64,000 nt of DNA, from assembly GCF_028389875.1 (NCBI RefSeq), contig NC_084663.1:682001-746000 (forward strand), read 5' to 3'. The position numbers and the translations under genes were made by a program. How positions within the stretch are numbered: position 1 is the first letter of the stretch; every line of letters starts with the position of its first letter. The stretch is from Rhea pennata (taxonomy: Eukaryota; Chordata; Aves; Rheiformes; Rheidae). The notes below the pieces were generated by a model. The model worked only from the letters and a program-made list of their open reading frames with translations, was not told where the DNA came from and ran no database searches. Below, piece after piece: positions 1-54,365 of this stretch.

Positions 1-4451
<4,451 letters not shown>

Positions 4452-15400: not shown

Positions 15401-18400
15401 CACCATCCCGTTCCCTGCCCCATCTCCATCCACTGCCCCAAGTCCTTCTCCCTTGTGCCATGCCCTGTCCCCTGCCCCATCCCTGTCCCATTCCTGCACC
15501 ATGTCCTTCTCCCCTGTCCCCTGTGCCCCATCCCCTGGGCCATTGCTGTCCCCCATCTCCTGTCCCATCCCTTTCTGCTACCCCATGTCCCCCATGCGCT
15601 GCCCCACCACTGTCCCCCGCCCCACCGCTGCCTCACAGCCGTGCCGGTGCGGTGCCGGCGTGCGCCCAGCGCTGTCTCTGGCAGGTGAGCGACTGGTGGG
15701 AAGAGTACATCTACCTGCGGGGCCGCAGCCCGCTCATGGTCAACAGCAACTACTACGCCATGGTGAGGCCGGGCGCCATGGGGCGCGGGGACCCCCGGCT
15801 GGGCCGGCCCCCAGCCCCGCGCTCACCGGCCCCTCCTGGCCCCCAGGATCTCCTGTACGTGACGCCGAGCCGCGTGCAGGCCGCCCGGGCGGGCAACGCG
15901 GTGCACGCGATGCTGCTGTACCGCCGCAAGCTGGACCGCGGCGAGCTGCCCCCCGTCAGCACCCTGCCCCAGGGGCTGCTGCGGGCACGGGGGCTCCGGG
16001 GGGCGGGAGGTTCCAGGGGGCTTCAGGGTGGTTCCAGGGGGCTGGGGCCATGGCGGGAGGAGGGGTGGGGAAAGCAGGGGGCTGGCTGTGGGGAGAGAGG
16101 GGTAGGGCTGGGGGCAAGGCACCGTGGGGCAGGTGTGGGGTCCCTGGGCTGGGGGTGGGAATGGGATGGGGTCAGGGATGAGGATCAGGGTGGAGCTGGG
16201 GGTCAGGGTTGAGGGTAGGAATGGGGCTGGAGATCAGGGATGAGGGTGGGAGAGGGGCTGGGGGTCAGGGATGAGGGTAGGAATGGGGCTGGAGGTCAGG
16301 GCTGGGGGTGGGAGAGGAGCTGGGGGTCAGGGCTGGGGGTGGGAGAGGGGTTGGGGGTCAGTAATGAGGGTGGTAATGGGGCTGGGGGTCAGGGCTGGGG
16401 GTGGGAGAGGGGTTGGGGGTCAGTAATGAGGGTGGTAATGGGGCTGGGGGTCAGGGCTGGGGGTGGGAGAGGGGTTGGGGGTCAGTAATGAGGGTGGTAA
16501 TGGGGCTGGGGGTCAGGGCTGGGGGTGGGAGAGGGGTTGGGGGTCAGTAATGAGGGTGGTAATGGGGCTGGGGTCAAGACTGGGGATGGGAGCGGGCATA
16601 GGTGTCACAGCCTGAGGTCGGGGCTGGGGTCAGGGCCGGGGGTGAGCGTGGGGCCGGGGGTCAGGAGTGGGGCCGGCGGTGGCCGCGGTCCGGGCGCGTG
16701 CCGCAGCCGGGCCGCCCCGCCCCACGCGCAGGTGATGGCCCTGGGCATGGTGCCCATGTGCTCCAACCAGATGGAGAGGATGTTCAACACGACCCGCGTC
16801 CCCGGGAAGGAATCGGGTAGGCGGCGCGCGCGGCGTGGGGCTCGGCGCCCCACGGCCCCCCGCCGCGGGGCCGCCGCGGGGCGTGACGGGGCCGCCGTCC
16901 CCGCAGACGCGCTGCTGCACCTGCTGAACAGCAGGCACCTGGCCGTGTACCACAAGGGCCGCTTCTACAAGGTCTGGCTCTTCCACGGCGGCTCGCTGCT
17001 CCGGCCCCGCGACCTGCAGATGCAGTTCCAGCGCATCCTGGACGACCCGTCGCCCCCGCAGCCCGGCGAGCAGCGGCTCGCGGCCCTCACCGCCGGCGAG
17101 AGGTGCCCGCGGCGGGCGCGGGCGGCGGGGGACGCCAGGAGGGGCCGCGGACGGGGCCCCCGACCCGGCCCCGCGGGGAGCGTGGGGCGCCCGTGGGGCG
17201 GCCGGGGGCTGCGGCGGGGGTCCGGGCACGGGCGGCGGCGGCGCCAGCCCTCACCCCTCGCCGGCGCCGGGCAGGGTGCCCTGGGCCGAGGCTCGGGCCA
17301 GGTTCTTCGGCTGCGGGAGGAACAAGACCTCCCTGGACGCCGTCGAGCGGGCGGCCTTCTTCCTGACGCTGGACGAGGAGGCGCACGGCTACGCCCCGGA
17401 CAAGGCGGACTGCATGGACACCTACGCCAAGTCCCTGCTGCACGGGAAGTGCTACGACCGGTGAGCAGCACCGGGCGCCGCGCCGCCGCCCCGCTCCGCC
17501 GGCCGCCCCGCGCCGCTCACCGCCGCCTCCCCGCAGCTGGTTCGACAAGTCCTTCACCCTGGTCGTCTACAAGAACGGCAAGCTGGGTGCCAACGCTGAG
17601 CACTCGTGGGCCGACGCGCCCATCATCGGGCATCTCTGGGAGGTAACGGATGGGCGCCCTGGCCGGGCACCGCGGGACGGGCCCAGATGCGCGCCCCCGG
17701 GATGGGCAGCCCCACGTGTGCACCCCCAGCCTGGGCACCCCCTACTTGGCCCAGATGTGCACCAGATGCATGGGGCACCTTTGCACAGTGCCCCCAGATG
17801 TTCACCCCAGGCTGGGCTCCTCCAGATGTGTGTTTCCAGGCTGCTCCCCCTCCCAGATGTGCAATCCCAGGCTGGGGGCAAGGAAGGGCCGAAGGGGGCT
17901 GCTCTGGAGGTGCTTGGGCCGCCCTGAAGGACCTGGACAGTGCTGCCATGCTGGGGGGGCATGCCCTGGGGGGCCCCAGGGGTGGTGGTGGAATGGGCCA
18001 CACGGGGGGTTGCATGAGGCTGCTTTAGGGGAGCTGAGTGGGACCATCCTGGAGGTGACTGGGGTCTCCTGGGAGGGTGGGGGCAATGGGGCTGCCATGG
18101 GGGGATTGGAAGGTGGATGGGGCTGCCTTAGAGAGAGCCTGGGGTGCTGTGGGGCCACCGTCCCCACACTCAGGCCCTGCCTCTCCTCCCAGTTCGTGCT
18201 GGGGACAGACCGATTCCAGCTGGGTTACGATGACGGGGGCCACTGCCACGGCGAGCCCAACACGCAGCTGGCGCCCCCCCAGCGCCTCCAGTGGGACATC
18301 CCCCAGGAGGTTGGTTCTGCCCCATGGCCCCGCTGGGTCCCTGCTGAGCCCACCAGTCCTCCAGCCCTGGCCCAACATCCGCGCACTCTGTGCCCCATTC

Positions 18401-27700: not shown

Positions 27701-27853
27701 GAGCGCGGGGCGGCGGGGGCGGCGGGGGCGGCGGGGGCGGCGGGGGCGGCGGCGCGGGGCCGGGCTGCCCGCGGCCGCTTTGATGCCGCCGGCCCCGCGC
27801 CGCTATAAAGGCTGCGGCGCCGAGCGCCCGCTCGCTCCCCGGCGAAGGAGAGG
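27700..27853 (+). promoter_or_regulatory. Promoter of lectin gene A with TATA box
   Basis: A canonical TATAAA stands at 27804-27809, 45 bases before the start codon at 27854, preceded by a ggcgggggcggc simple repeat (about 27715-27755). A TATA-driven, short-leader promoter fits a strongly induced secretory gene. Genes B and C have a different arrangement, with a separate 5' exon. Confidence 0.7.
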
Positions 27854-29429
27854 ATGAGGCCGCCGGCTTTGCTCAGCCTCTGCCTCCTCGGCTGCCTGGC
27901 CTTGCTCCCCTCGCTGCAAGGTGAGCCCCTGCCCGGCCGCCCGCCGCCTCCCCGCGGCGCCCTCGGCCCGTGCAGCGGCCGTGCAGCGCCGTGCGTCCCC
28001 GCCGGCCTCCGCAAGCCCTGGGCGGCGGGCGAGGGGGGCTGGGGCCAGTCGGGACAGCCGCGGCGCCCCGCGGAGCCGGGCATGGGGGCCTGGCAGCTGA
28101 GACCCCCCCGCCCGGGGCGGCCCCCGCCCGGCGCCGCTGCCTCTCCCCCCGCAGGGGTGCGAGCAAACAGGTGCCTCAAGGGCTGGCTGGACTTCAGGGG
28201 CAATTGCTACGGGTATTTCCGGCAGGAGCTGCCCTGGAGGAAGGCGGAGGTAAGGTCCCGCCGCCCCCCGGCCCGCGGTGCCGCCGGCCCGGAGCCCCCG
28301 GCCCGGCGCGGGCGGGGGCCGGTGCGTAACGGGGGCCGGGGCGCGCCCGCCCCTTCTCCCGTCGCAGGCATGGTGCAGGGTCGTCAGGGGCGGCTGCCAC
28401 CTCGCCTCCATCCACACCTCAGAGGAGCACAGAGCAGTCGCCAAATTCATCAGCCAGTGCCGACGGGGCGAGGAGGGAGATGATGTCTGGATCGGCCTCT
28501 ACCACTGGGTGAGCGTCCGCTGCCCTGTCCCTGCTGGGGCAGCCCCAGCAGCCGTCTGCGCTCGCTCCTGCTGCCCAGGAGCCGTGTGCACAGCTCCGGG
28601 TTGCACTGGCCCCCTGCAGACCGTGCAGCCCTGATGGCATCCAAACCCACCCACTGCCCCTCTGTGTCTGTGCAACATCTGCCCCGTCTGCATCCCTGCC
28701 CACCCACTGCCCCTCTGCATCTGCACATCTGCCCCACCTGCATCCCTGCCCACCCTCTGTGTCTGCCCAACCTCTGCCCATATCCACACGTGTCTCCTGT
28801 GCTCTCTGTAACTAGCCGAGTCCCTGCTGGGCCCCGGCACCACGCTGCTCTGCTGTCCCCATCCCAGCCCTAGACCTTTCTCTGCTGCACCGCACTTCCT
28901 GCCCAACACATGTGTTTTTACTTGCCCATCTCTGCTGCCCCCAGAACAAATCCTGGTCATGGATAGATGGATCCAAGATGCATTACTCTGCTTGGGACGA
29001 TGAGGATTTCTCAAAGGGACAATACTGTGCGGCGCTGGAGGACTCCTCAGGTGAGCGGGGGATGCAGAACCACTCACACTAGGCAGGGACCCCAGCAATC
29101 CACTGCTCCCTGCCCCCTGCACTCCCCAGGCAGCCTTCCCAAGGGCAAAATGGGCCCACACCCTGTGAGCTGCTTGCTGCAGGACCATCCCCCTGGGGCA
29201 GGGATGCTCCTGCGGCTTGTGGCCATGCGCAGCAGCAGCGCGGTGTCTTGTCCTGCCTCCTGCTCCAGGAGGCTCAGCTCTAGTGTCACACAGGGACGTG
29301 GTCGCTGAGAGGATGGAGGAAAGGGTCCCACCATAGCACTCACTCCTCTTCCCCTTTGCAGGTTTCTTGTCCTGGGAGGATGATGCTTGCAGCGAGAGGA
29401 ACGCCTTCATCTGCAAATGCGCAGCCTAG
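27854..29429 (+). CDS. Eggshell-type C-type lectin A (struthiocalcin-1/ansocalcin group)
   Basis: A 158-residue secreted C-type-lectin-like protein. Exons: 27854-27920, 28155-28249, 28368-28508, 28945-29050, 29362-29429; stop TAG 29427-29429; AATAAA at 29723-29728. Exon 1 is a signal peptide ([20 protein letters not shown]). The mature part begins near GVRANRC and shows [51 protein letters not shown] and [11 protein letters not shown], which I recognise as very close to ostrich struthiocalcin-1 and goose ansocalcin, eggshell matrix proteins that bind or nucleate calcite. The six domain cysteines are present plus extra ones in [15 protein letters not shown] and the final CKC. The EPN/QPD sugar-binding motif is absent, as usual in this family, so mineral rather than sugar binding is expected. 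Function is inferred from family, not shown here. Confidence 0.9.
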
Positions 29430-29729
29430 GCAGCAGGGTCACCACTGAGCTGCTCTCCGCCTGGACATCGCCCTGCACCCTGCTCCCCTGTGCTCTGCAC
29501 CCTGATCCCCCCGCCGTGTCCATGCACCCACTCCCTCCCGTGTCCATGCACCGTGCTCTCCTGTGTCCATGCACCCCATTCACCCCGTGTCTATGCACTC
29601 CGCTCCCCCCGTACCATGCACCCCACTCCCCTGTGCCTTGCACCCTGCGCTGTGCGCTCCCAGACCCCTGGCAGCACCACTGCAGTTGTTCCGTCTCCCC
29701 AGCGGCAGCTCAGCGAACTAGCAATAAAC

Positions 29730-31318
29730 TCCCCCAAATGCCATGGCATCTGCGTCTTTGTCTGGGCTGTGTCCCACGGCCCTCGTCTGTCCTCACCCCT
29801 GCCCAGCTGCAGCAGGGCACAAAAAGCCCCCCCCCCCCCCGAGGATGCTGCCCTGGTGCCCCACACCACGGGGTCTGTCCTGGCATGGGGGTTCCCATGG
29901 CCTCAGTGGTGGCACTGAGAGAGCTGGAGGGGTCCCATGGGAGTCCACCCCACTTAAGTGGGCAAGCAGCAGGCAACATGGGCAGGTGCCATCTCCCTGG
30001 GCAGGGATCCTGCACCATGGGTCTGTGCACCATGGGTCCATGCACCACGCACATGTGCACCATGGTCTGCGCTCTGCAGATCCTCCATGCCTGGGAGTCA
30101 GTTTCTTCCTGCTGGTACTCAGCTCCAGCAGGGCCCAAAGGGGGCCGGGAGGAGCAGGGGTGAGCTGGGTTTGCAGCCTGCCACAGGCCATCGTGCCCCC
30201 CTCTGAGACACAGCTGCCCTTACCTGTGTAAGGTGGGGGCCAGGTGGGATTGCTGGCACCTTGGTCCAAGCCCTGGGCTCCCCCAGCCCCACAGTGGGAA
30301 CCCCCTTGCCTCCAGCCTCCTTATCTGTGCCGAGATATGAGGCAGCAGTCCATGCCTGGGGGCTTCCAGCTGCAATGCTCCCTGCTCGGAGATGGCCAGG
30401 GAAAGCCACAGCCGTCGGCAGGGCCCCAGAAAGCTCCATGACCGGCAGCGGGTGCCGGCGAGAACCAACAGTGGTTGGCCCTTGCCCTACCTTCATGTTC
30501 GAAAACGACAGCCCAGGAACCTGTCATCTCAGTCTCAGCTGAAGCTCCCATGTCTGCCTTGGCTGCATTCAGTGATTCAAGTATTTGCCTACCACTCAGT
30601 GCTGTGATAAGGGAGCTGGAGCTGCCACGGGGTCGCAGCTGCCAGCCGTCAGCAGAGGGTCCCACGCTGGTGTGAGCAGCGAATGAAGCAGAAATGCCCC
30701 AGAAAGAGCATGCCTGACATATGGACCAAGGCTATCGAGAGCTTGCTCCTGCTACAACTCTGGGCTTGGAGGCAACGAGCATCTACAATTAGGGCTGGTG
30801 CAGAGTCTGACTTCAGTAGTGAATTCCCACTCGCTGTAAAATCTCCAGAAACAAGATGCAAAGTCACTGGGAGGCCATGGGAATGGGTCTGGCTCCCCCT
30901 ATAGCATGGGGAGGGGAGAGACGTGGCCAGGACGAGCCCTTGCTCCAGCTGCTGTGGTCACCTGGCAGCATGGAGCATGCGGAGCGAGAGGGGATGAAGC
31001 AGCATCAGAGAGGACACGTGCAAGATTCGAGTTCAGGCACGGAGGGAGCAACAGGGCTAAATGCTGCTGGGCTGTGGATGAGGTGCTGCCCCTGGCTACA
31101 GGTCCTTTGTCCTCTTGCTAAATGGCACCAGCAGCTTGCACAAAAATTGCCCCAAGGGCGAGCACCTGCTGCTAGCCCCTGCCTGGCCTGGGTTTCCTGG
31201 AGCCTCTGGCAGTGCCAGGCACGGTGCCCTTGACTGGGCAGCTGAGGAAGGTGATGGGAGCAGTGTGGGCTGGGCCAGGATGGGGGCAACAAGCAGCTGT
31301 GCTGGCACTGTCAGCACC
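29730..31318. other. Intergenic region between lectin A and B
   Basis: No gene recognised. It holds a C-run at about 29828-29840 and catg/tgcac-rich short repeats at 30010-30070. 30400-31100 looks single-copy with moderate AT content. Genes A and B converge on this region and their 3' ends are about 2.5 kb apart. Confidence 0.45.
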
Positions 31319-31440
31319 TGCTGCAGGGGTACGGGGTGCAGGCTGTGGGGTGCTGGGTGCACAGTGCAGGGATATGGGGTGCAGGCTGTGGGGTGCTGGA
31401 TGCACAGTGCAGGGTGCAGTGTGCAGAGTGTGGGGTGGCA
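31319..31440 (-). repeat. Inverted short copy of the lectin-C intron repeat
   Basis: Contains ggggtgcaggctgtggggtg and ctgggtgcacagtgcaggga, the exact complement of the unit that is tandemly repeated at 38517-39480. It lies just beyond the 3' end of lectin gene B. Confidence 0.8.
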
Positions 31441-31935
31441 CGGTGCACTGCATGCCAGGACACCTTGGTTAAGCTGCACGTATGCAGGCATGCACACACA
31501 TGTGCGTGCAGGGCTGTGCACACACATACTGCGTGCATGCAGGCGGGGGAGCAGGGCAGGATGCTGCAGCCCCATCCGTCCACGGGCCTGCTGCAGCCAC
31601 TCGCCCACAGGGAGCCACTGTCGGGGCTTGGCAGAGCTGGGGAGTGTGGGACAGGACCCATCTCCCAGGCTGGGACGGGGCCGTGTGGGGTAGGCCCAGC
31701 ACCTGTGCCAGGACGGGACTGTGGGGGGCAGGATCTGTGCCTGTGCCAGGATGGGGCTGTGTGGGGCCCAGCGCCCGCACCCGGCGGTGGTGGCGAAGGA
31801 GGTGCAGAGCCGGCTGGATGCTCGGGGGGAGGTTTATTGGCAGCGCGGTGACTGTGCCGGAGCCGATCCGGCGGGGGCCAGCGGTGCGGGACGTGGCCTT
31901 CCAGGGCCAGGGCAGGAGCCCAGCCAGCTGCCCGC

Positions 31936-34900
31936 CTATGCCATGGACTTGCAGACGAAGGGGTGGGCACTGCTGCAGGCGTTTCTCTGCCACGTCAAGT
32001 GCTCTGCGGGTCCGGCAGCACCGGTGCTGAGTGCAGCTACCCCTGCCCCGGCACTGTCCCAGCCCCACACACCATCCCCATTACCCCACAGCGATGCACC
32101 ATGCAGTGCCGGTGCCTGTGCAGAGCTCCATGTCACCAGCATCGCTGCTGGCCCCACACACTGTCCCCATCACCCCACAGCGATGCACCGCAAGGCGCCA
32201 GTGCCTGTGCAGAGCTCCGTGCTGCTGGCATTGCTGCTGGCCCTGCACACGGCCCCCATCACCCCGCAGCAATGCACTGCACAGTGCCAGTGCCCATGCA
32301 GAGCTCTGTGCTGCTGGCCCTACACACGGCCCCCATGACCCCGCAGCGATGCACTGCACGGTGCCAGTGCCCATGCAGAGCTCTGTGCTGCTGGCCCTAC
32401 ACACGGCCCCCATGACCCCGCAGCGATGCACTGCACGGTGCCAGTGCCCATGCAGAGCTCTGTGCTGCTGGCCCTACACACGGCCCCCATCACCCCGCAG
32501 CGATGCACTGCACGGTGCCAGTGCCCATGCAGAGCTCTGTGCCACCAGCGTCGCTGCCGGCCCCGCACACCGCCCCCACAGCGATGCACCACACGGTGCT
32601 GGTGCCCATGCATCACTGCTGGCCCATGTGCCCACCTGTGGTGGCCTCCAGAGCCACGCAGAGGTGCTTCTTGAGGCCCTCGTGCTCGTCCCATGCCTGG
32701 TACTGCACCTTGCTGCCGTCCGTCCATTCCCAGCGGAAGTTCTGCAGATACGGAAAAGGGCTCAGGGAGCCGTTGGCTGGGGAGCTGTGGGGCGCACGCC
32801 CAGGGGAGGAGGAGGAGGGAGGCTGAAAGCTCACCATGGTCATGTGGAGTCCGACCCAGACATCGTCCACGTTGTAGTGCTGCGAGCGGGAGATGAGGTC
32901 GGCGACGGCGTAGTTCTCCCTCTCACTGTGGATGGAGGCCAGGTGGATCCCAGCGCCCAGCTTCCGGCAGAAGACCTGTGGCAGGGGATGGCAGTGTGGT
33001 GCCACCGCCACAGTCACCTCACCAGGCAGCTTCATCCTCCCCCTCCTGCCTCGCGCTGGGGCTGCGAGCTCCGGACGGGCGCCTGCCGCCCCGGGCACCC
33101 CGAGGTCCCACACGACAAGTGGTACCCAGGGCACGGCGCCCAGGACATGGCTGCTCTGGCTTCTCCACGCCTTTCATGCTGATTCCTGGCATGAGGCTTA
33201 TGTCTTTGGATAGGGCTGTGAGATGAGCCCCGTATGTGGGCGCTGAGCCCCACGGGTGGGTGCTGAGCCCCACATCCAGGTACTGAGCCCTGTGAGTAGA
33301 TGCTGAGCCCCACAGCCAGGTGCTGAACCCCATGGCTGGTTGATGAATGTCATGGACGGGTGCTAAGCCCTATGGCTGGGTGACAAGCTCTGTGGCTGGG
33401 TGATGAGCCCCATGGCCACTTGATGAACCTCATGGCCAGGTGCTGAGCCCCATGGCCAGGTACTGAGCCCCAGATGCTAAGCCCCACAGCCAGGTAGCTG
33501 CCCTGCTGCTGCCTATGCCATTGCTGCAGGCCCCACAGAGCTCCAGGATGGGAAAGCCATGGTGCAGAGCCCTGGAAAGCTGTGGAGGGAGCAGCCGTGC
33601 GCCCCGCACCCTGCACCACAGCCCCCCCCCCCCCCAGCCCCTGCCTGCCACCCTGCCTGCTGCTCCTCACCTCGGCTTCCCTCCAGGGCAGCTCCTGGGG
33701 GAAGAAGCCGAAGCAGGAGCCGTCCTCATGGAGCATCAGCTGCTGGTGGCAGTCGCCCACTGCCCCTGCCGGGATGGACGCAGCGAGGGCACGGGCTGGT
33801 CCCTGTGCTGGGCCCCTTCAACGCTGTCCTGGGCAGCTTGGCCTCCCGACCACCCAGCTGCGCATCGCCCCCCAGCCATGGGGCCACGTCCACCCCGTTC
33901 CCCATTGCCCCCCCCCCAGCCCCTGTGGCTGGATCCACCCCACTCCCCATCGCTCCCCCAACCCCCACGGCTGGGTCCGCCCCGCTCCCCATCACCGCCC
34001 CAGCCATGGGGCCGCATCCACCCCACTGCCCATCACCCACCCCGGGCACCTGTGGCCAGATCTGCCCTGTTCCTCATCGCCCCCCCAGGCATAGGGCCAC
34101 ATCCACCCCGCTGTCCATCGTTCCCCAGTTGTGGGGCCACGGCTGCCCTGTTGCCCATCACCCCCCAGCCCCACAGCCAGATCCACGCCACTCCCCATTG
34201 CCCCCCGGGCAACCATGGCCAGATCTGCCCTGTTCCCCATTGCCCCCCAGCCGTAGGGCCGCATCCACCCCACTGCCCATCACCCCCCGGTTGTGGGGTC
34301 ATGTCCGCCCTGCTGCCCATCACACCCCCCGACCCCCACGGCGGGGTCCGCCCTGTTCCCCATCGCCCCCGGCCGTGGGGCCGGATCCGCCGCGCTCCAG
34401 CGAGGCTTCCCGGCACTGCTGCTGCGCAGCACCCGGCCGAGGCCGCGGCTCCGGGATGCCGCCGGTGATGAGGGTCTCCGAGGCGTCGCGCGAGGCAGGC
34501 GTGAAACGGGGAGAATCCAGGGGGCTCGGGGAGGCCACGCGCGAGCCACGCGGTGCCGGCGCGGAAAGGGCTGGGGCTGCCGCGCCGGCCCTGGCGCGGG
34601 CTGGCGTCTCCCGGCGGAGCGGGGCAGGGAGACCCAGGAGCAGCTCCGGGGCCGCTGCGACCCGGCGGGGGGGGGGGGGGGGGGTGGATGCACCCGGCGT
34701 CACGGCTGCTCCGAGCCCAGGGAGCCCGGCTGCAGCCTGCGCAGGCGACATGGCACCTGTGCGAGGGCTCCCGGCATGGGGCTGAGACCCTGGTGTGGGG
34801 CACCCAGCGGGGCTGAGCCTCCCCCCCCCCCAGCATGGGGCACCCAGCAGGACTGAGCTCCCGGTGTGGGACACCCGGCGGGGCTGAGTCCCTGGTGTGG

Positions 34901-35706
34901 GGCACCCGGTGGGACTGAGCTCCCCAGTGTGGGACATCTAGCAGGGCTGAGCCCTCTGGCGTGGGGCACCTGTCGAGACTGAACCCCCGTAGTGGGGCTC
35001 CCGGCAGGGCTGAGCACCCCAGAATGGGGCACCCAGCGGGACTGAGCTCCCCAGTGTGGGAACCCAGCAGAGATGAGCCCCCCACCATGTGGGGCACCCA
35101 GCAGGGCTGAGCTCCCCAGCACGCGGCACCCAGCAGGGCTGAGCCTCCCCCCCACTCAGCATGGGGCACCCAGCGGGACTGAGCTCCTCAGTGTGGGGCA
35201 CCCGGCAGGGCTGAGCCCCCGGTGTGGGGCACCCGGCGGGGCTGAGCTCCCCAGTGTGGGGCACCCAGCGGGACTGAGCTCCTCAGTGTGGGGCACCCAG
35301 CAGGGCTGAGGCCCCGGTGTGGGGCACCCGGCAGGGCTGAGGCCCCGGTGTGGGGCACCCGGAGGGGCTGAGCTCCCCGGTGTGGGGCACCCGGAGGGGC
35401 TGAGCTCCCCAGTGTGGGGCACCCGGCAGGGCTGAGGCCCCGGTGTGGGGCACCCGGCGGGGCTGAGGCCCCGGTGTGGGGCACCCGGCGGGGCTGAGCC
35501 CGCCAGCCGGGTGTCCCCTGCCCGGGGCTGAGCCGTGGGTCGTGGGTCCCGGTGCGGCTGCTCACCGCCGGGGGCCCGCGGTGCCGGGGGCCCCGTGCCG
35601 CGGGCACAGGCGCGGCGCGGGGCCGCCAGCCGGGCTCACCTCCCGGGGCCGGGCTGCGCAGCAGGACGGCGAGGACGGCGAGGGTGAGGCGCGCGACGGA
35701 TCCCAT
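31936..35706 (-). CDS. Eggshell-type C-type lectin B (third, inverted paralogue)
   Basis: Intact minus-strand gene encoding 158 residues. Coding exons: 35706-35640, 33765-33671, 32975-32835, 32741-32636, 32003-31936 (67, 95, 141, 106 and 68 bases, the same lengths and phases as gene A). The first coding exon starts at 35718 after an acceptor (tttctctccag), and a non-coding exon ends at 35820. The poly(A) signal AATAAA is the complement of 31833-31838. Signal peptide: MGSVARLTLAVLAVLLRS. The mature part shows GDCHQQLMLHEDGSCFGFF, LGAGIHLASIHSERENYAV, DVWVGLHMTM, WEWTDGSKVQYQAWDEHEG and NACSSAHPFVCKSMA. It has exactly the six canonical cysteines but lacks the Trp of the usual C-x-x-GW start. 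It is nearer to C in exons 2-3 (CFGFFPQELPW) but has A's shorter exon 3. It fits neither known group, and eggshell function is inference only. Confidence 0.85.
32040..32630 (+). repeat. About 77-bp array in lectin B intron 5
   Basis: Repeated units containing ctgctggccctacacacggc, ccgcagcgatgcactgcacg and ccatgcagagctctgtg, period about 77 bases, more diverged at the left end. Confidence 0.8.
33220..33500 (+). repeat. Short tandem array in lectin B intron 3
   Basis: Copies of tgctgagccccacggctggg/tgatgagccccatggccagg with a period of roughly 22 bases. Confidence 0.7.
33850..34380 (+). repeat. C-rich array in lectin B intron 2, part 1
   Basis: Degenerate units of ccccattgccccccagccat and ggggccacatccaccccgct, period about 55-60 bases. 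Confidence 0.7.
34660..35510 (+). repeat. G-tract and 27-30-bp array in lectin B intron 2, part 2
   Basis: A run of about 17 G (34667-34683) precedes many copies of a unit such as tgtggggcacccggcggggc followed by tgagctccccag, period about 27-30 bases. Such tracts are prone to length change and assembly error. Confidence 0.75.
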
Positions 35707-35819
35707 TGCCTTTTCCTCCTGGAGAGAAACGAGAACGGGGCCGTGGCCTCCCCGAGGAGCCCCGCAGCCCCTCCGCTTCCTCCGTGCCCGGCTCCCGGTC
35801 GCCTCGGCGGCGCGGATAC

Positions 35820-35915
35820 CTGCCGGCGCGATCGGGCTGGAGATAAGGAAAAAGCTCTTCCCTGGAAGGCTGGTGCAGCAGCGGAGCAGTGCTCGGAGCA
35901 GCTCCGGGATTTTTA
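35820..35915 (-). promoter_or_regulatory. Lectin B promoter and non-coding first exon
   Basis: On the minus strand a TATA-like TAAAAAT at 35915-35909 is followed, after about 90 bases, by a donor (ccggcag|gtatcc) whose exon ends at 35820. The next exon begins at 35718 after a good acceptor. This predicts a 5' exon of about 60-65 bases and an intron of 101 bases, the same plan as gene C. Confidence 0.5.
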
Positions 35916-36639
35916 CCCCCGGAGTTTCTGAGACACAAATGGGCAACCGGTGGCTGCGACCCAGGGGCACAACGCGGCGTGGCCGGAGGCTGCTTCCAGT
36001 GGGCGGTTGGACCGGAGCCCGCGCGGAGGCCGAGCCCGGGGCCAGCACCGGCACGGCGCGCTCCGGCCCTACGCCCCCTCGGCACGTCCCGTCCCGGAGC
36101 GGCGCGGCGGGGGCGCAACGCCGCCGGCGCAGCGGGGCTCTCGCGTCCTTGCTGCACCCTGCGCGGCCGCGAGATCTCCCCCACGCCGAGGGTCCCCCGT
36201 CCCCACGCGCCCACGACCCGCTCGCCGCCCTGTTGCCCACGCACCAGGCTCCTGGCCTGCACGCGCGTGCCGCGGGCAGCGCCGCCGCAGCGCCCCGGCA
36301 CCGGCCTCCCGCAACGGGGGCCCGTCCCCGAGCCGCCGCCGCCTCCCGCGACGCGCTGCCCGGGCAGCGCCGCACTCCGCGGCCGGGGCAGCGGCACGGG
36401 GAAGGGGCCGCCAGCGCCCGGCTCCCTCGGCGGGCGGCGCGGGGCCCGGCTGACTGCGCGGCGGTAGCGTTTGATCCGGGGCCCTGAATCGCTCCCCCGC
36501 AATTTGCACGGGCAGGCGGCTTCGCGCACGGCTCGCCCGGGCGCCAGGCAGCAGCGTGCGCCAGAGCCAGCCGCGGCTCCGCCGCGCAGCCCCGGACGAG
36601 CGGCCGGCGCTGGAGCGGTGCCAGGGCCGAGCGTGGCGT

Positions 36640-37510
36640 GCGGTGCCCCGTGCCACGCTGCACTGTGCGCCGCTGTGCTGTGCCGTGCAGCGCCGTGCTG
36701 TGCCATGCTGTGCTGTAGCGTCACACCGTGTCATGCTGCACCGTGCCGTGCCACATTGTGCTGTGCTGCACCGTGTTCTGCCATGCTGTGCTGTGCAGTG
36801 TCATGCTGTGCCATTCCATGCCATGCTGTGCCACACCACGCCATGCGCTGTGCTGCAACGTGTCACACCGTGCCATGCTGCACCATGCAGTGCTGTGCCA
36901 TGCCATGCTGTGCCGTGCTGTGCTGCAGCTTGTCACACCATGCCATGCTGCACTGTGCAGTGCCATGCCATGCCTTGCTGTGCTGTAGCATCACACCATG
37001 TCATACTGCATCGTACTCTGCTGTACCGTGCCATGCTGTGCTGTGCCGTGTTGTGCCTTACCATGCCATGCTGCAATCTGCTGCACTGTGCTGTGCTGTG
37101 GTGTGTCACACCATGCCATTCTGCACCATGCAATGCCGTGCCATGCTGTGCTGTACTGTGCCGTGCTGTGCTGCAGCATGTCACACCATGCCATGCTGCA
37201 CTGTGCCACACTGTGCCGTGCCATGTTGTGCTGTGCTGCTCTGTGCCATGCTGTGCCATGCCACGCCATGCTGTGCTGTGCTGCGCTGCAGTGTCACACC
37301 ATGCCACGCTGCACCATGCAGTGCCGTGCCATACTGCACTGCGCCTTGCTGTGTTGCAGTGTGTCACACCATGCCATGCTGCACCGTGCAGCGCCGTGCC
37401 ATGCCATGCCATGCCGTGATGCAGTGTGTCACACCATGCCATGCCGCACCGCGCCATACTGTGCCATGTTGTGCTGTGCCACGCTGTGCCGTGACATGCT
37501 GTGCCGCTCT
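36640..37510 (+). repeat. ccatgctgtgctg-type short-period array between lectins B and C
   Basis: About 870 bases built of ccatg, ctgtg, ccgtg and caccatg units, imperfect and of period near 5 and 10, with interspersed tgtcacaccatgccatgctg blocks. It lies in the divergent interval between the promoters of B and C. Confidence 0.85.
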
Positions 37511-38328
37511 GTGCCGGCAAACGCGTGTGCCCGCGGCGGGGAGCGCCCGCAGCAGCTCCCGGGAGGGCGCCCGGGAGCGGTTCCTGGACACTCCCGCGCC
37601 GCTCTGACCTGGCCGGGCCGGTTCTCCCCAGGGCCGCCCGCTCGCAGGCTCTGCCTCCCGCAGCCCCCGGGATCTGCCCCTTCCTTCCGGGGCGCCGGAT
37701 CCCGCGGCGCCAGCGGCCCCCGGCTCCCGCTTGCCGCTAATGCAGCCGCGGAGCCTGAGCGTGACTTCGGGGAGCATTTTACCCCAAAACCAGCTTACGA
37801 CGGTACCGGCGGCGCCGGGAGCCGGGAGGCGCCGGTGACAGCCATGGGCGCGGGAGGCTCACGGGCCGCCCGGGCGCCGGTCCCGCCGCGCCGCGGGAAG
37901 CGCGGAGCCCCCCGTGCACGGGCTGGCGGCCGCCCCGGGGCTGCGGTGAGCGCCGCCGCCGCCGCCGCCTCCGTGCGCGATGCGCTTGGCCGGGGCCGGC
38001 GGGCGCCTGACGCACGCGGCCTGGCGCGGCGGCGGCGGCGGGCACCGAGCCCCGCGCCCCGGGCTGGCCCCGGCCCCGCGGGCGCTCCCGGCCCCGCCGC
38101 TGGCAGCCGGCTCGGCCGCCGCCGCGCCAGGGCTCGCCGTGCCCCGCCGCCCGGGGCCCATCAAAGGCGGCGGCCCGGCGCCCGCGGCTCTCCCACGTGC
38201 GTCGGTGGGGCGCGGACGCGCGAGCCCTGTTTGCTTTGGGGAAGCGATGACATTTCGGGATGACATTTCGGGCCGCTCGCCCTGCGCCTCGCTCCCCCTT
38301 CCCGCCCCCCCCTCCCCGTTCCCGCGGG
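37511..38328. other. CpG-rich region upstream of lectin C
   Basis: High CpG density with GCCGCC runs (about 37950-37970). No confident exon. Likely part of the regulatory space shared by the divergent B and C genes. Confidence 0.4.
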
Positions 38329-38412
38329 GATAAAACCCCCGGGGCGCTCGTCGGCGCCCCGCACCGTCGGACCCAGCGCCCCGCGCCGCGCCGGCCTCCC
38401 GAGGGACCGCAG
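38329..38412 (+). promoter_or_regulatory. Lectin C promoter and non-coding first exon
   Basis: A TATA-like GATAAAA at 38329-38335 is followed by a donor (gaccgcag|gtgagt) after 38412. With a start site near 38360 the 5' exon would be about 50 bases. It is joined to the coding exon that begins at 40239 after ctccccag. Confidence 0.5.
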
Positions 38413-38516
38413 GTGAGTCCGTGCCGCCCCGCTCGCCCCGCCGGGCACCGCAGGCTGCGCTGCTGCGGCAGCGCCCGGCCCGGGGGCCTCGCTGCCCCAG
38501 CCCGGGACCCACAGCA

Positions 38517-39480
38517 GCCCAGTATCCCTGGCACCCTGCGCTGTGCACCCGGCACCCCAACCCTGCACCCTGCACTCATACCCCAACCCTGCCTCTTGCA
38601 CTGTGCACCCCGCAACCCAAACCCTGCACCCCATACCCCTGCACTGTGCACTCATACCCCACACCCTTGCACCCCATAGCCTGCACCCTGCACTGTACAC
38701 CCCAACCCTGCCTCTTGCACTGTGCACCTCGTAACCCAAACCCTGCACCCTACACCCCACAGCCTGCACCCCATATCCCTGCACTGTGCACCCAGCACCC
38801 CATAGCCTGCACTGTGCACCTAGCACCCCACAGCCTTGCACCCCACACCCCTGCACTGTGCACCCAGTACCCCAAACCCTGCACTGTGCACCCAGCACCC
38901 CACAGCCTGCACCCCATATCCCTGCACTGTGCACTCATACCCACACCCTTGCACCCCATAGCCTGCACCCTGCACTTTGCACCCCAACCCTGCCTCTTGC
39001 ACTGTGCACCCCATAACCCAAACCCTGCACCCTACACCCCACAGCCTGCACCCCATACCCCTGCACTGTGCACTCATACCCACACCCTTGCACCCCAAGT
39101 CCTGCACCCTGCACTGTGCACCCAGCACCTCACAGCCTGCACCCCATACCCCTGCACTGTGCACCCAGTGCCCTGCACTGTGCACCCAGAACCCCAAACC
39201 CTGCACCCTGCACTGTGCACCCAGCACCCCACAGCCTGCACCCCATATCCCTGCACTGTGCACCCAGCACCCCACAGCCTGCACTGTGCACCTAGCACCC
39301 CACAGCCTGCACCCCATACCCCTGCACTGTGCACCCAGCACCCCAAACCCTGCAGCCCTGCACTGTGCACCCAGCACCCCATAGCCTTCACCCTGCACTG
39401 TGCACCCAGTACCCCACAGCCTTGCACCCCAAAGCCTGCACCCCAGTACTGTGTACCCAGCACTCAAACTCTTGCACCCC
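38517..39480 (+). repeat. Tandem array of cagcctgcaccccata units in lectin C intron 1
   Basis: Many copies of accccacagcctgcacccca and ccctgcactgtgcacccagc, period about 45 bases with deletions. The same unit occurs once in inverted orientation at 31319-31440. Confidence 0.85.
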
Positions 39481-40238
39481 AAGCCCTATACCCAGCACCT
39501 GTGTATCTGACATGCAGTATCTGTGCATCCCTGCACCCTGCTTCCCTGCACTCTGCCACCTTACCCTCTGCATCCCCCCACCCTGCACCACCCACTGCAC
39601 CAACACACCTTGCACCCTGCGTGCTGCACCGTTGTGCCCTGCATCCCGCATCCCACACCTAGCAACCCACATTCTGCACACTAGCACCCCACACTGCACC
39701 CCAGAAAGGGACACCTGCACATCCCATTCCCCCTGCACAGGAAAGCTGTCGCCTCCTGGCACCTCCCACCTGGTAGCTGGGATTCACCTCCGCTCCTGTG
39801 CACATTGTCAGAGCACCCTGGGCCTTCCAGGCTGTAACCATGGGCTGCCCTGCACTCAGCACCACCACCCCAACACCCCTCTTACCAGCTTGGGTGCCCC
39901 TGCTTGCAGCCACAGGGCCAGCCTCAGTGCCCCCATGCACCTGCGGGGCCAGACTGGGTGCCCCCCATGCATCCACAGAGCCGGGCAGGGTGCCATCCAT
40001 GGCCCCATAGTGCCAGGCTGGGTGCCCCCTGTGGCCCCACGGTGCCAGGCTAGGTACCCCCCATGGCTCCATCTGCTCTGGGCACCACCGGCTACCACTC
40101 CAGCTCAAGGGAAGCGCCCACCTCCCGCCGTGGCCAAGGGGTCTGCACGGCGAGCGGCTGCCGCCCTGGGAAAAGCCTGCCGGTAGGATGCAGGAAAGGG
40201 CGGCCGCCCACTGGCCCCTGCCCGTGCTGTCTCCCCAG
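39481..40238 (+). other. Remainder of lectin C intron 1
   Basis: Unique-looking sequence plus short repeats of gtgccaggctgggtgccccc (39930-40080). No coding exon seen. Confidence 0.4.
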
Positions 40239-40249
40239 GTCAGCAGAAG

Positions 40250-41575
40250 ATGGGCTGGAGGACGTACTGGGGGCTCTGCCTCCTCAGTGGCTTGCTGCTC
40301 GTGCCCGCACTGCAAGGTGAGCACCCGCTGCAGCATTGCCGGCCCCAGGGTTTCGCTGTGGACGGGGCAGCTGTGCTGCTGCCCGCTGCCCACTGCCCTC
40401 ACCATGCCCCCAATGCTGCCCCTCTGCAGGCGACGAGCAGGAAGGCTGCGCGAGCGGCTGGGTCCCCTTCGACGGGCGATGCTTTGGCTTCTTCCCCCAG
40501 GAGCTGAGCTGGAGGAGAGCCGAGGTAAGGGGCTGGCAGGGCCCGGTGCCAAGCGGCACTGAGCCATGCAGCCCGCCCCGGGGGTTGCCTCCATCCTGGC
40601 CGGGGCATCCCGGCTTTGGCCCCATGTGTCCCCAGCTCTGGGAGTGCCCAGCGCACCCTGGGGAAAGGCATGGCTGAGCACACCGCAAGCATGCATGTGC
40701 GTGCACGTGTGCATGCACGTGTGCGTACACATATGCACGGGTGTGCATGTGCAGTCCAGCACCCCGTCCATCCGTGCTCCTCGGTTCCACGGGACCTGCG
40801 CACCCGTGGGGCGCTGGGCCAGGAGGAGGAGCGGGGTGAGGCCAAGGCCAGCCCCGGGGCCTCCCTTTGGCACCGGCGTCACGCCGCCCTTCATGGCACA
40901 GGGCTTCTGCCAGCGGCTGGGCGCCAGGACGCACCTGGCCTCCATCCACAGCGAGGAGGAGCACCAGGCTATCATGAGCATGCTGGCCTCCTCCCAGCCC
41001 TACAGCGAGAGCGAGGAGGAGGTGGCCGACGAGGAGGTCTGGATCGGCCTCCATCGTCCCCTGGGGGTGAGTGCCCACTGCCGCCCTTCCCCGGCGCGGA
41101 GAGCTGGACCGCCATGGGCTGCTTCTGCGGGCACCTTCCCGGGCTCTCCGTGCCCCCGAGGTGGGCCAGCTCCCCAGCGCCTCATCCCCTCCTGCCCTGC
41201 AGAGGCGACACTGGGAATGGTCGGACGGCACCAAGATGGATTACAGCTCCTGGTACAGGGAGGGCTTCCCGAGGCGGAGGGCCTGCGCGGCGCTGGAGGA
41301 CAGCACGGGTGAGCAAAGGGCTGCGCGCGCCGGCGCGGGGGCTCCCGGCGGGAGCAGGCAGCACACGGGCGCGCATGCTCACGTGCGCGCACACACACAC
41401 ACACGTGCGCACACACACGCGCGCACCGCGCACACGCAGGAGCACTGCCGGGCGGAGGGCCCGCGCCTGGCCAGCTGGAGGCTCAGGGCACTTCTCCTCC
41501 TCTCCAGACTTTGCCTCCTGGGACACGGAGCTCTGCAGCGAACGGAAGCCCTTCATCTGCGAGTACCACGTCTAG
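40250..41575 (+). CDS. Eggshell-type C-type lectin C (struthiocalcin-2/ovocleidin-17 group)
   Basis: A 166-residue secreted protein. Coding exons: 40250-40316, 40430-40524, 40902-41066, 41203-41308, 41508-41575; stop TAG 41573-41575; possible AGTAAA signal 41659-41664. Signal peptide: MGWRTYWGLCLLSGLLLVPA. The mature part starts near DEQEGCASGWVPFDGRCFGF and carries ELSWRRAE, LASIHSEEEHQAI, EEVWIGLHRPLG, WEWSDGTKMDYSSWY and ERKPFICEYHV, matching my memory of struthiocalcin-2 and, less closely, ovocleidin-17. Exon 3 is 165 bases, 24 longer than in A and B, and encodes an acidic insertion including YSESEEEVADEE. The serines sit in S-x-E contexts used by the secretory kinase FAM20C, consistent with known phosphorylation of this group. 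Six canonical cysteines, no EPN/QPD motif. It is the third member of the cluster, divergent from B. Confidence 0.9.
41375..41430 (+). repeat. (CA)n/(CG) simple repeat in lectin C last intron
   Basis: Alternating acacac and gcgcgc dinucleotides, a potential Z-DNA tract of about 55 bases. Confidence 0.8.
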
Positions 41576-41743
41576 GGCAGCCGCCGCCCATGCCGCGGCC
41601 GCCCCGGGCCACCAGCCCTGTCTCCACCCCATACAAATCCTCACGGCCGGTGGCCGGCAGTAAATATCTCCCAGTGCTCAGCCTTGTCTGTGCCTTCCTT
41701 GTCCGTGGGCACTGCCGTCCCTTGTGGTGGCGGTCGGGGGTGT

Positions 41744-41988: not shown

Positions 41989-42840
41989 AGCAGGGAGCAG
42001 AGCAGGGAGCAGAGCACGGAGCAGAGCGGGGAGCAGAGCAGGGAGCACAGGAAGGAGCAGAGCGGGGAGCAGAGCAGGGAGCAGAGCAGGGAGCACAGGA
42101 AGGAGCAGAGCGGGGAGCAGAGCACTGAGCAGAGCGGGGAGCACAGGAAGGAGCAGAGCGGGGAGCAGAGCACTGAGCAGAGCACGGAGCAGAGCGGGGA
42201 GCAGAGCAGGGAGCACAGGAAGGAGCAGAGCGGGGAGCAGAGCGGGGAGCAGAGCGGGGAGCACAGGAAGGAGCAGAGCGGGGAGCAGAGCAGGGAGCAG
42301 AGCACGGAGCAGAGCGGGGAGCAGAGCGGGGAGCACAGGAAGGAGCAGAGCGGGGAGCAGAGCGGGGAGCAGAGCGGGGAGCACAGGAAGGAGCAGAGCG
42401 GGGAGCAGAGCAGGGAGCAGAGCAGGGAGCACAGGAAGGAGCAGAGCGGGGAGCAGAGCGGGGAGCAGAGCGGGGAGCACAGGAAGGAGCAGAGCGGGGA
42501 GCAGAGCGGGGAGCAGAGCGGGGAGCAGAGCAGGGAGCAGAGCACGGAGCAGAGCGGGGAGCAGAGCGGGGAGCACAGGAAGGAGCAGAGCGGGGAGCAG
42601 AGCGGGGAGCAGAGCGGGGAGCACAGGAAGGAGCAGAGCGGGGAGCAGAGCAGGGAGCAGAGCAGGGAGCACAGGAAGGAGCAGAGCGGGGAGCAGAGCA
42701 GGGAGCAGAGCACGGAGCAGAGCAGGGAGCACAGGAGGGAGCAGAGCGGGGAGCAGAGTGGGAAGCAGAGCGGGGAGCAGAGCGGGGAGCACAGGAAGGA
42801 GCAGAGCGGGGAGCAGAGCAGGGAGCAGAGCAGGGAGCTA
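41989..42840 (+). repeat. 12-bp minisatellite, about 70 units
   Basis: Units of gagcagagcggg, gagcagagcagg, gagcacaggaag and similar 12-base variants are organised into larger blocks. Purine-rich on the plus strand. Because the unit equals four codons, it leaves frames open on both strands (EQSG/EHRK on the plus strand). Confidence 0.95.
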
Positions 42841-43805: not shown

Positions 43806-45107
43806 CGAGAGGGTCCTCACAATACGGTGACTATTAACAGTATGAGCATAGGATATAACATGAGTTGCAGCACACTGGTGGCTTTTGGTGACCATCCTTC
43901 AAAGATGTGGTACCAATGATGTTCAGTAAGACTGGTTTCTACTTTTGCTAATCAAATTAATTCATTCTTATCATACACCATTTTCACTTCTCTTTCTTCT
44001 AAACATTTTTCCGGTTTCCAACAGATGTTGAGTAACTGTGGTGTTTTGTCTGAGAAAGTTGTCTAGTTCATGGAAGGTTACTCCGAGTGTTGCTGATGTA
44101 TTAAATGGAGCAAAAAAGACATCTTTTGTTCAGCCATGTGAGCACTCAAACACTAAGTCTGCTCAGTTATTTGGTCAAAAACAAGTCACATTACAACAGC
44201 AAATGTTGCCAGGTCCAATATTAACATCATCTTCAAGGGGAATAGCATTGAGGGTGGATACACACACACATCCAAAACTGTTGTCCCGTACTCGTGTCTC
44301 ACGCCCAGAGACACGTTGCCAGACGCAGGAACCAGAGCAGTGTTTCATCCTGCATAATTCTGGAGCTCTCGGTGTGGATGGGCAGGTCCATCCTCCACTG
44401 GAGAGCCAGTAGATGCAATGTCGAGTAATTTCGTAAGTGTCATTAGTATTACAATGCAAACGATCTCCTGCTGCCACAGGTACCCTAGCCATGGATGGCA
44501 CCAGCTGGTACAGCATATGAGTCCACGTAGACACAAGTGGCTCCTTGCTCCAGAACTATTTCCACTGCCAGATTAAAAAAAAATATTAAAAGTAATATTA
44601 AAAAGGGGGGGGGGCATGAAAACTATAGTCAAATATTATCTGTGTTCAGGGCTTTTCTCCTCCCACATTCACAATAGTCAAAGCACCTGTTCTGAACAAC
44701 AGTACTGCAGAGGAAGCCGAAGGCCTTGCAGCAACGCACGCTTTCAGGACCACTTTTTTATTACTGTGTTTCCTGAAAAGACAGTAGGGAATGAAAACTT
44801 GCAGGTTCCTGAACTATTTTAATACAACATTTCCTGAAACAAACAGGAATTTCCTGAAAAACAAACAGGAATTTAAAACTTGGTTGAAGGTGGGGGAAAA
44901 AAATAGTCCATCCTTCCTAGCAACACAATAGTTAAAGCAGAAAGAAGTGTTGGTAACTGATTTCTTATACTGCAAGACTTTAGAAGGGAGGTAATGAATC
45001 TGAAGCCCTTTGCATGCATTTAGCGAAGCTGTTGGCATAAGAGCTCTGAATCATTCAGTATTCCCCACATACGAGTCAATGTGTATTAACCACAACCAAA
45101 TTCTGAG
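43806..45107. other. AT-rich island, unassigned
   Basis: Base composition drops abruptly from very GC-rich to AT-rich. A minus-strand open frame at 44534-44175 is Cys-rich (CNTNDTYEITRHC, CSGSCVWQRVSG) and may be an old interspersed-repeat fragment, but no family is recognised. An A-run with a G-run follows at 44575-44612. No host gene seen. Confidence 0.4.
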
Positions 45108-45385
45108 AATCATAGAATCACAGGATCAGTAAGGTTGGAAGGGACCTCTGGAGATCATCCAGTCCAACCTCCCTGCTCAGCAGGGTCACCTAGAGCATGG
45201 TAGACAGGGTTGCATCCAGGTGGGCCTTGAAGATCTCCAGAGAAGGAGACTCCACAACCTCCCTGGACAACCTGGTCCAGTGCTCCGTCACTCTCTCAGT
45301 GGAGAAATTCCCCCTCACCTTCAGGTGGAACTTCCTCTGCTTCCACTTCTGCCCATTGCCTCTTGTCCTGTCACATGGGAAAAGC
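45108..45385 (-). mobile_element. CR1 LINE, 5'-truncated 3' end
   Basis: Read on the plus strand it begins agaatcatagaatcacagga, followed by ggttggaagggacctctgga: the reverse complement of the CR1 3' terminus with its short terminal repeat. About 280 bases remain, ending near ttgtcctgtcacatggg. It is parallel to, and similar to, the first part of the longer copy at 46541. Confidence 0.9.
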
Positions 45386-46540
45386 TTAAGTCAAAAGGAA
45401 ACCTAAAGAATGTTTAATCCTTCCAATTCTTCCGTACCAAGGAAGGGAACCTTAGCCTGTCAGTGGATAATTTTTGGAGCGATTGCTCACTCAGGAGCTG
45501 TATTTGCTACCTTCACGAACAGCAGAAGTCGCCATCAGTCCTTCCCAGCCTCTTCCAACCAACTGAAAGCAGCTTTGAGAATCCTATATGCACGCCGCAG
45601 ACATCTTCGGAAGAGGGACGATACTGCTGTAAAAATGGATCTTTTCAAACTGAAGCCGTTACGTGTTTGGTCGGAACTGTACATGAAGCGGACCAGGAGC
45701 TCAGATTGTGGCGTTTCAGCATTGCATGCAAGAAGTCTGTAAGTGGCAGCACCGCTGCATGCAAGGCATTTTTGGGATGACACTGTCATGGCTCATTGCC
45801 TTCAGCATTTCATTAGGTTCAGCTACATCAGCAGCCACCTCTTACGTTTTCACATTGCTTATTGAAAGGCCGTGGCTGCTGGGGTGGATGCAGACACCCG
45901 CAGAGCTTCTGAAGTTCACTAGATGGCAACATTTCAAAAAAAATCATTCAATGCTTCTTGCCCAGACGCTGCACTACCATACCAGGCTAACGATGTTTTG
46001 CCAAAAAAAATCTCTAGTCGAAACCCTTCTTCTTCTGTCCACTGTCTCATAATAAATGTGGACAAACTCTCCAGCAGCTGTACAAGCTTGCTCCCCAGAG
46101 GTCTGATGCCCAGGGAAGCAGCCATGCAAGCGAGCGGCAGCAGGGCCCCTCCGGAGCACCGAGGTGGGCAGCAGGCGGGGGTGACCGCACTACCCCACAC
46201 CCCTCTGACGGTTGCACTTTGTCCCGACCGTGACGCCAGCTCCTGTCACAGTCCAGCACTCTCTGACCCGGTTCTCTTAGATAGTCCTCACATGGAGGGT
46301 TAATGTTTAATATTAAAGCTTACTTTGAAGATATGTGATGTAACACAGGATCTTTGATTTAGCAGAGCAGTACAGCAATATACTGAAGTCACAACACAAG
46401 TGCAAGTCACACTTAGCAAACCACAGCAATTGCACTCTGCAGTTCCACCTCAATACCAGCGTGGTTTCCATTACCGGGCTCTATAATATGCTCACCGGTA
46501 CAGTCGCGGCGTGTCCCAGTACCGCAAGCCTGGACAGGGG
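45386..46540. other. Sequence between the two CR1 copies
   Basis: AT-richer, with several 100-codon frames on both strands but none matching a family I know. No repeat structure is evident. Confidence 0.35.
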
Positions 46541-49500: not shown

Positions 49501-49850
49501 AGCTACAGGCAAATGTGCTTTGTGGAGTGTCATGACCATGTCTGAGGAAGTGCACACTAGTAAGATTGGAAACTGAAGTTGCCTTCTTGCATCCAGCTGT
49601 GCAAACTGCTACACAAACTCCTGCTTCTGGTCACTGTTCACTGTGCTCTAGGCCTGGCTCTCATACAGGCCTGTCCCTAGTACTGACTCACAGGGTGCTT
49701 GACCCACTCTAATCAAGGGCCAACTGGATCAAAGGCCTCAACTCCCTCTACTCAGGGGCAACCAAGAGGGCTCATTAGGAGCAGCTACACCTGGTTACAC
49801 CTAGCTTCTCCCAGGCGAAGTTAAGGCCTCCTGCGGTTGTCTTTGCCCAG
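46541..49850 (-). mobile_element. CR1 LINE, long but internally deleted copy
   Basis: The 3' end is at the left (catcatagaatcacaaaatg). On the minus strand, 47179-46775 encodes the C-terminal part of ORF2 ([39 protein letters not shown]), 47595-47380 the reverse transcriptase core ([21 protein letters not shown]), and 48449-47832 the upstream RT region (GPDGVHPQRLREL, NYRPVNLTSIPGK). 48993-48670 and 49557-49006 resemble CR1 ORF1 (VVGDSMLQGTTAPICQPDLL). The endonuclease domain expected between ORF1 and RT is missing and the RT frame is broken at several points, so the copy is inactive. The exact 5' end near 49850 is uncertain. Confidence 0.9.

Positions 49851-51430: not shown

Positions 51431-54365
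<2,935 letters not shown>

Follow-up and report, generated by a model that had tools for sequence, protein, structure and literature searches.

We analysed a 64,000-nucleotide stretch of the Rhea pennata genome (C1:682001-746000, hereafter the window; the genome spans 1.27 Gb in 180 contigs, of which C1 has 216.9 Mb), and splicing of the genomic sequence revealed three complete five-exon genes, A, B and C, of the secreted C-type lectin family related to REG, between CPT1B and CIMAP1B. We take CIMAP1B to be a synonym of ODF3B. In our best reading, to which we assign a probability of about 0.58, the locus combines two genes for shell-gland proteins, A and C, with an old third paralogue, B, which is most likely an avian type III soluble mucosal (gut) lectin. 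The eggshell role of A and C is most likely on grounds of orthology only. Gene structures, relationships and sequence features at this one locus come from the present analysis; uterine expression of types I and II, the effects of ovocleidin-17 (OC-17) on crystals and the expression of type III in the gut or more broadly are supplied by the literature.

Three lectin genes share one exon plan

Genes A (27854-29429, plus strand), B (35706-31936, minus strand) and C (40250-41575, plus strand) have coding exons of 67/95/141/106/68 nt in A and B and 67/95/165/106/68 nt in C, entered in phases 0/1/0/0/1 throughout. The 12 introns are without exception bounded by GT-AG, and the first in-frame stop of each gene is the final TAG. 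This agreement of exon lengths, phases and open frames is not chance. A preliminary description of this DNA had proposed three intact lectin genes with the same five coding exons and identical phases, lying between CPT1B and CIMAP1B; splicing bore out the structures to the base, and matches to PF00755 and PF07004 on either side bore out the location. It left the inverted orientation of B unremarked; A and B stand tail-to-tail and B and C head-to-head. Each product has a leader, judged hydrophobic by eye, followed by a single C-type lectin domain (Pfam Lectin_C, 66.1, 64.3 and 66.0 bits for A, B and C, against a cut-off of 22.6). A tblastn search of the window with the A, B and C proteins found these three genes and, beyond them, no additional copy and no substantial fragment.

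Calcium-dependent lectins bind sugar through the motifs EPN or QPD and WND. These canonical motifs are not kept in alignments of the three proteins: the WND position reads WED in A, WQR in B and WDT in C, and neither EPN nor QPD precedes it in any of them. The paralogues have aligned identities of 59/128 (A/B), 59/131 (B/C) and 60/131 (A/C), and whole-precursor identities of 42.7% (A/B), 44.9% (A/C) and 41.8% (B/C).

Genes A and C resemble the two eggshell lectin types

We compared each protein with lectins of solved structure. The best match of A was ostrich struthiocalcin-1 (SCA-1) with 237.4 bits, followed by OC-17 (98.5) and REG4 (93.5). A and SCA-1 are identical at 96 of 131 residues and differ at the other 35, and A has the cysteine pattern of the type. 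The identities of B and C to SCA-1 are 40.6% and 43.5%, which places both outside type I. The predicted product of gene A is therefore of type I, the struthiocalcin-1 type (XCA-1). Two cysteines of A that are absent from SCA-1 lie in exon 3 (28368-28508), within RGGCHLAS and ISQCRR, and might form an additional disulfide.

For C, the best single-domain match was OC-17 (136.2 bits), ahead of SCA-1 (118.4) and REG4 (83.9), with 66 of 137 residues identical to OC-17. C is also identical at 37 of 43 positions to the four peptides of struthiocalcin-2 (SCA-2) printed in PMC5039028 (11/12, 13/14, 6/8 and 7/9). Its 24 additional exon-3 nucleotides encode an acidic loop in the alignment. Grouping with OC-17, six cysteines and an S-E-S-E-E-E loop identify the predicted product of gene C as type II (XCA-2/OC-17 type). 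The earlier likening of A to struthiocalcin-1 and of C to struthiocalcin-2 and ovocleidin-17 thus agrees with the identities, with the SCA-2 peptides and with the pairings in the tree given below. A and B found their top single-domain match in SCA-1 and C in OC-17, and these are likewise not the REG or snaclec proteins named beforehand as the outcome that would speak against an eggshell family.

Gene B belongs to neither eggshell group

The single-domain scores of B were 104.4 bits for SCA-1 and 77.3 bits for both OC-17 and REG4, with two snake lectins (84.4 and 83.5 bits) ranking in between. LY75 ranked first for B and for C, being a multi-domain receptor whose domain scores add up. Aligned identity of B is 52/128 to SCA-1 and 44/127 to OC-17. 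B has no S-x-E site, compared with two in A, two in C, one in SCA-1 and two in OC-17, and its six cysteines match group II in number only. The maximum of acidic residues in any ten is 3 in B, 4 in A, 5 in SCA-1, 7 in C and 3 in OC-17. Two groups of eggshell lectins have been distinguished on the basis of sequence identity, phosphorylation of serines and cysteines (PMC7881572), and by identity, S-x-E sites and cysteines B is a member of neither. The predicted B protein thus belongs to neither type I nor type II.

An unrooted tree of the five proteins gave the same picture, with A and SCA-1 on one side, C and OC-17 on the other and B between the two pairs (supports 100 and 96-97). When REG4 was used as the root, three placements of B differed in log likelihood by 0, 2.4 and 3.3, with p values of 0.76, 0.33 and 0.09 in the approximately unbiased (AU) test, whose 1000 replicates do not allow a firm conclusion; the proportion from resampling of estimated log likelihoods (RELL) for B outside both pairs was 0.04. 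REG4 rooting does not settle among these placements, and the duplication order of A, B and C is therefore not fixed by a rooted tree.

REG4 and other lectins elsewhere in the genome

The genome searches scored only the best candidates, and among these we saw no other gene of this exon plan with A, B or C as query. Of the 17 matches that the search with B returned at E <= 1, 11 lie in the cluster and 6 elsewhere (best E 0.005); the searches with A and C returned 40 matches at E <= 10 and 39 at E <= 1, respectively, and their matches outside the locus were weak (best 38.3 and 38.7 bits). Five such loci (L021, L022, L023, L029 and L030) were considered as carriers of the same gene plan and rejected, as the alignment runs through the exon 2/3 junction. 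They read like what we take to be mannose-receptor and lectican domains.

A weak match of A (17.9 bits) led to a REG4 lectin gene at C8:28.03 Mb. This gene (L037:3905-4642) has four coding exons of 174/138/106/74 nt, and its lectin-domain introns are in phases 0, 0 and 1, as in A, B and C. The exon plan is thus not special to eggshell genes. The signal peptide and the first lectin-domain exon of REG4 are fused in the single 174-nt coding exon, with no separate signal exon. REG4 gave the best single-domain chain for this gene (106.4 bits, against 69.2 for SCA-1), and an HMG-CoA synthase frame (256 bits) lies directly downstream, in keeping with the published adjacency of REG4 to an HMG-CoA synthase gene (PMC8144736). 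Best match and neighbour together mark the C8 gene, and not B, as the REG4 orthologue. Its identity is 32.3% to A, 28.1% to B and 27.9% to C. B as REG4 itself was rejected on this 28.1% identity and on location, C1 versus C8.

Coordinates of the three genes and of their flanks

The coding exons, all placed by splicing, are as follows. In gene A (plus strand), exon 1 with the signal peptide spans 27854..27920, exon 2 28155..28249, exon 3 (141 nt) 28368..28508, exon 4 28945..29050 and exon 5 with the stop 29362..29429. A putative TATAAA stands 50 nt before the ATG (27804..27809) and an AATAAA signal follows at 29723..29728, both found in the sequence. In gene B (minus strand), exon 1 with the signal peptide spans 35640..35706, the transcript exon probably starting at 35718 after an AG read by eye, exon 2 33671..33765, exon 3 (141 nt) 32835..32975, exon 4 32636..32741 and exon 5 with the stop 31936..32003, followed in the sequence by AATAAA at 31833..31838. 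A possible non-coding first exon of B (35820..35885, donor G/GTATCC at 35820, 5' end a guess) and a putative TATA-like TAAAAAT upstream (35909..35915), both on the minus strand, were read by eye.

In gene C (plus strand), exon 1 with the signal peptide spans 40250..40316, exon 2 40430..40524, exon 3 (165 nt; the acidic loop is the SESEEEVADEE region of the alignment) 40902..41066, exon 4 41203..41308 and exon 5 with the stop 41508..41575, and AGTAAA, a variant polyadenylation signal, is found in the sequence at 41659..41664. Also read by eye on the plus strand were a putative TATA-like GATAAAA (38329..38335) and a possible non-coding first exon (38360..38412, donor CAG/GTGAGT, 5' end a guess) with its acceptor at 40238/40239.

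Pfam searches of open frames, together with splicing, gave the order CHKB, CPT1B, lectins A, B and C, CIMAP1B and TYMP, and the flanking exons of choline kinase, carnitine acyltransferase, SHIPPO repeat and thymidine phosphorylase are all on the plus strand. The choline-kinase exon (CHKB, 2783-3178) scored 23.7 bits, below the Pfam cut-off of 29. On the left flank, an open frame with a carnitine acyltransferase exon of CPT1B lies at 17367..17924 (PF00755, 43.6 bits); on the right, an open frame with a CIMAP1B exon of the SHIPPO or sperm-tail PG-rich repeat lies at 53859..54362 (PF07004, 27.2 bits against a cut-off of 20), and the thymidine-phosphorylase exon of TYMP, found by Pfam search, at 56677-57816. 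Frame 53079-53738, chosen by a presumed CIMAP motif, had no Pfam match.

The mammalian interval between CPT1B and CIMAP1B presumably holds SYCE3 and KLHDC7B. A family search for SYCE3 gave no match in the window at E <= 1, and a putative human SYCE3 sequence gave chance matches only. SYCE3 family matches (81.4 and 41.6 bits, L038 and L039) were found at C1:83.66 Mb, on the same contig some 83 Mb from CPT1B.

Many minisatellite arrays lie in the introns of B (32062-32578, 33850-34329 and 34828-35506), in the gap between B and C (36665-37515), in the 5' intron of C (38526-39500) and directly downstream of C (41989-42838). Such arrays may explain the absence of the lectin locus from many assemblies. 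Between gene C and CIMAP1B, positions 44000-49700 form an AT-richer stretch (GC 0.489 at 44001-48000). Its minus-strand frames resemble what may be a remnant of a CR1 long interspersed element (LINE); five open frames from the 44-50 kb stretch had no Pfam match.

Published eggshell lectins and the identity of gene B

In birds and reptiles, XCA1 and OC17-like/XCA2 share a published locus whose neighbours are LMF2, NCAPH2, TYMP, ODF3B, CPT1B and CHKB (Le Roy 2021, PMC8144736), and the duck genes ACA-1 and ACA-2 have five exons each (2021 duck genome paper, PMC8505442). Chicken OC17 is a single-copy gene near the start of chromosome 1 (PMC10700341). The genomic home and exon plan that the preliminary description offered as new are hence real, and are not new (PMC8144736, PMC8505442, PMC10700341). 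The home between CPT1B and CIMAP1B and the two gene types being already published, interest now centres on gene B and on the arrangement of a type I gene, an inverted third gene and a type II gene. Our literature searches found no statement of a third gene inverted between two shell genes, within text that for PMC8505442 excludes the figures and supplements, which may show the finch locus.

Types I and II are uterus-specific in duck and pigeon, while type III, represented by cDNA of pigeon CCA-3 and zebra finch taeniocalcin (TCA), is expressed broadly in pigeon and in the gut, with low levels in the uterus, in zebra finch (PMC8505442). Duck has types I and II, zebra finch only type III, and pigeon all three by cDNA (PMC8505442). 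In the arrangement we favour, A and C would be secreted by shell-gland cells into the uterine fluid and would act on growing calcium carbonate via charged surfaces, as described for OC-17 and the struthiocalcins, rather than by canonical calcium-dependent sugar binding; C could act additionally through its phosphorylatable acidic loop. B, an old third paralogue that shares their exon plan and lies inverted between them, would be a soluble lectin of the mucosa (gut) that works much as REG proteins do. The description of all three genes as one eggshell cluster does not hold for B, which lies outside both pairs and lacks S-x-E; the one third avian type on record is expressed in the gut or broadly (PMC8505442). 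B as an eggshell gene is not supported.

Several observations weigh against this placement of B. Its assignment to type III, although most likely, was reached by elimination, without direct comparison to a type III sequence. The absence of S-x-E from one protein is weak evidence, and OC-17 likewise has no acidic run, so that a missing acidic cluster alone does not exclude a shell role. At -7, B carries more net negative charge than A (-2) or SCA-1 (-3 by our own count; Table 2 of PMC5039028 gives -11). When REG4 was added to the tree, supports fell to 47-64, with 58 for C and OC-17; A and SCA-1 formed no clade in IQ-TREE, and FastTree put OC-17 with REG4 and B with A and SCA-1. We take this break-up as long-branch noise. 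In the zebra finch, a major shell lectin of 17 kDa resembles SCA-1 (PMC4666066), and the labels for the zebra finch gene disagree, being XCA-1 in PMC8144736 and type III in PMC8505442.

An alternative, in line with the preliminary description, is that all three are shell-gland genes and that B encodes a third eggshell calcin ("XCA-3"). In that case B and C may be controlled jointly from the 2.4 kb that separate the TATA-like boxes of this head-to-head pair. B shares the locus and the exon plan, is secreted with a net charge of -7, finds its best single-domain match in SCA-1 (104.4 bits), and its segment CFGFFPQELPWR is identical at 10 of 12 positions to an SCA-2 peptide (PMC5039028). However, it falls outside both eggshell pairs and has no S-x-E; the text of PMC7881572 has two groups only, that of PMC8144736 two such lectins in each ratite shell, and the third avian type is reported as low in the uterus (PMC8505442). 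We therefore consider a shell-gland B unlikely, while regarding it as the strongest competitor of a mucosal B. That B was recently silenced or is decaying, and is intact by chance, we consider improbable. Its introns are swollen with minisatellites, but it retains an open frame, GT-AG introns, the six lectin-domain cysteines, an AATAAA and a codon composition with a GC content of 0.90 at third positions against 0.43 at second positions. In neutral simulations (2000 runs each), 19.8% of frames were still stop-free at 0.1 substitutions per site and 2.4% at 0.3, which is compatible with very recent silencing.

An origin of B from REG4, or from another REG gene moved into the cluster, would account for the three shared lectin-domain intron phases and for the equal 77.3 bits against REG4 and OC-17. 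It is nevertheless the least probable reading, and highly improbable: the REG4 of this genome sits on C8 beside the HMG-CoA synthase gene with its own best chain to REG4 (106.4 bits versus 69.2 for SCA-1), and B is 28.1% identical to it, compared with 45-46% to A and C, and has a separate 67-nt signal exon.

If B is type III, all three types sit in a single cluster, with III inverted between I and II. We propose more tentatively, and as somewhat short of an even chance, that the window keeps the full ancestral avian cluster in this order and that the patchy repertoires elsewhere reflect differential losses from one array. A gut-type B head-to-head with the shell gene C would, if true, provide a living link from REG-like defence of the mucosa to the mineralisation of the eggshell. 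Eggshell lectins were first known from protein sequencing, and their GC-rich genes were missing from many bird assemblies; three complete genes on one contiguous stretch, with their order and orientation, and REG4 from the same genome make a shared ancestral array of shell and gut lectins, and its losses by lineage, directly testable. The exact A, B and C sequences can also be used for searching the Rhea pennata shell proteome.

Comparison with known lectins

Like avian type III as described in PMC8505442, gene B is a third lectin of the OC-17 kind that stands apart from both type I and type II; the likeness is by description only, and the text of PMC8505442 does not say where type III lies with respect to the other two. 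REG4 is like A, B and C in being secreted, with a single lectin domain and three lectin-domain introns of the same phases, but differs in its identity of about 28-32%, its position on C8 rather than C1 and its lack of a separate 67-nt signal exon. Gene A retains the additional cysteine of SCA-1 (in CKC) as well as its IHTSEEHR site, and its genomic home matches that published for XCA-1 (PMC8144736); unlike SCA-1, it has two further cysteines and fewer clustered acidic residues. Gene C resembles OC-17 in its six cysteines, and carries S-x-E in its longer exon-3 loop where OC-17 has one. However, with a net charge of -12 gene C encodes a strongly acidic protein, whereas OC-17 is basic, with a net charge of +8.

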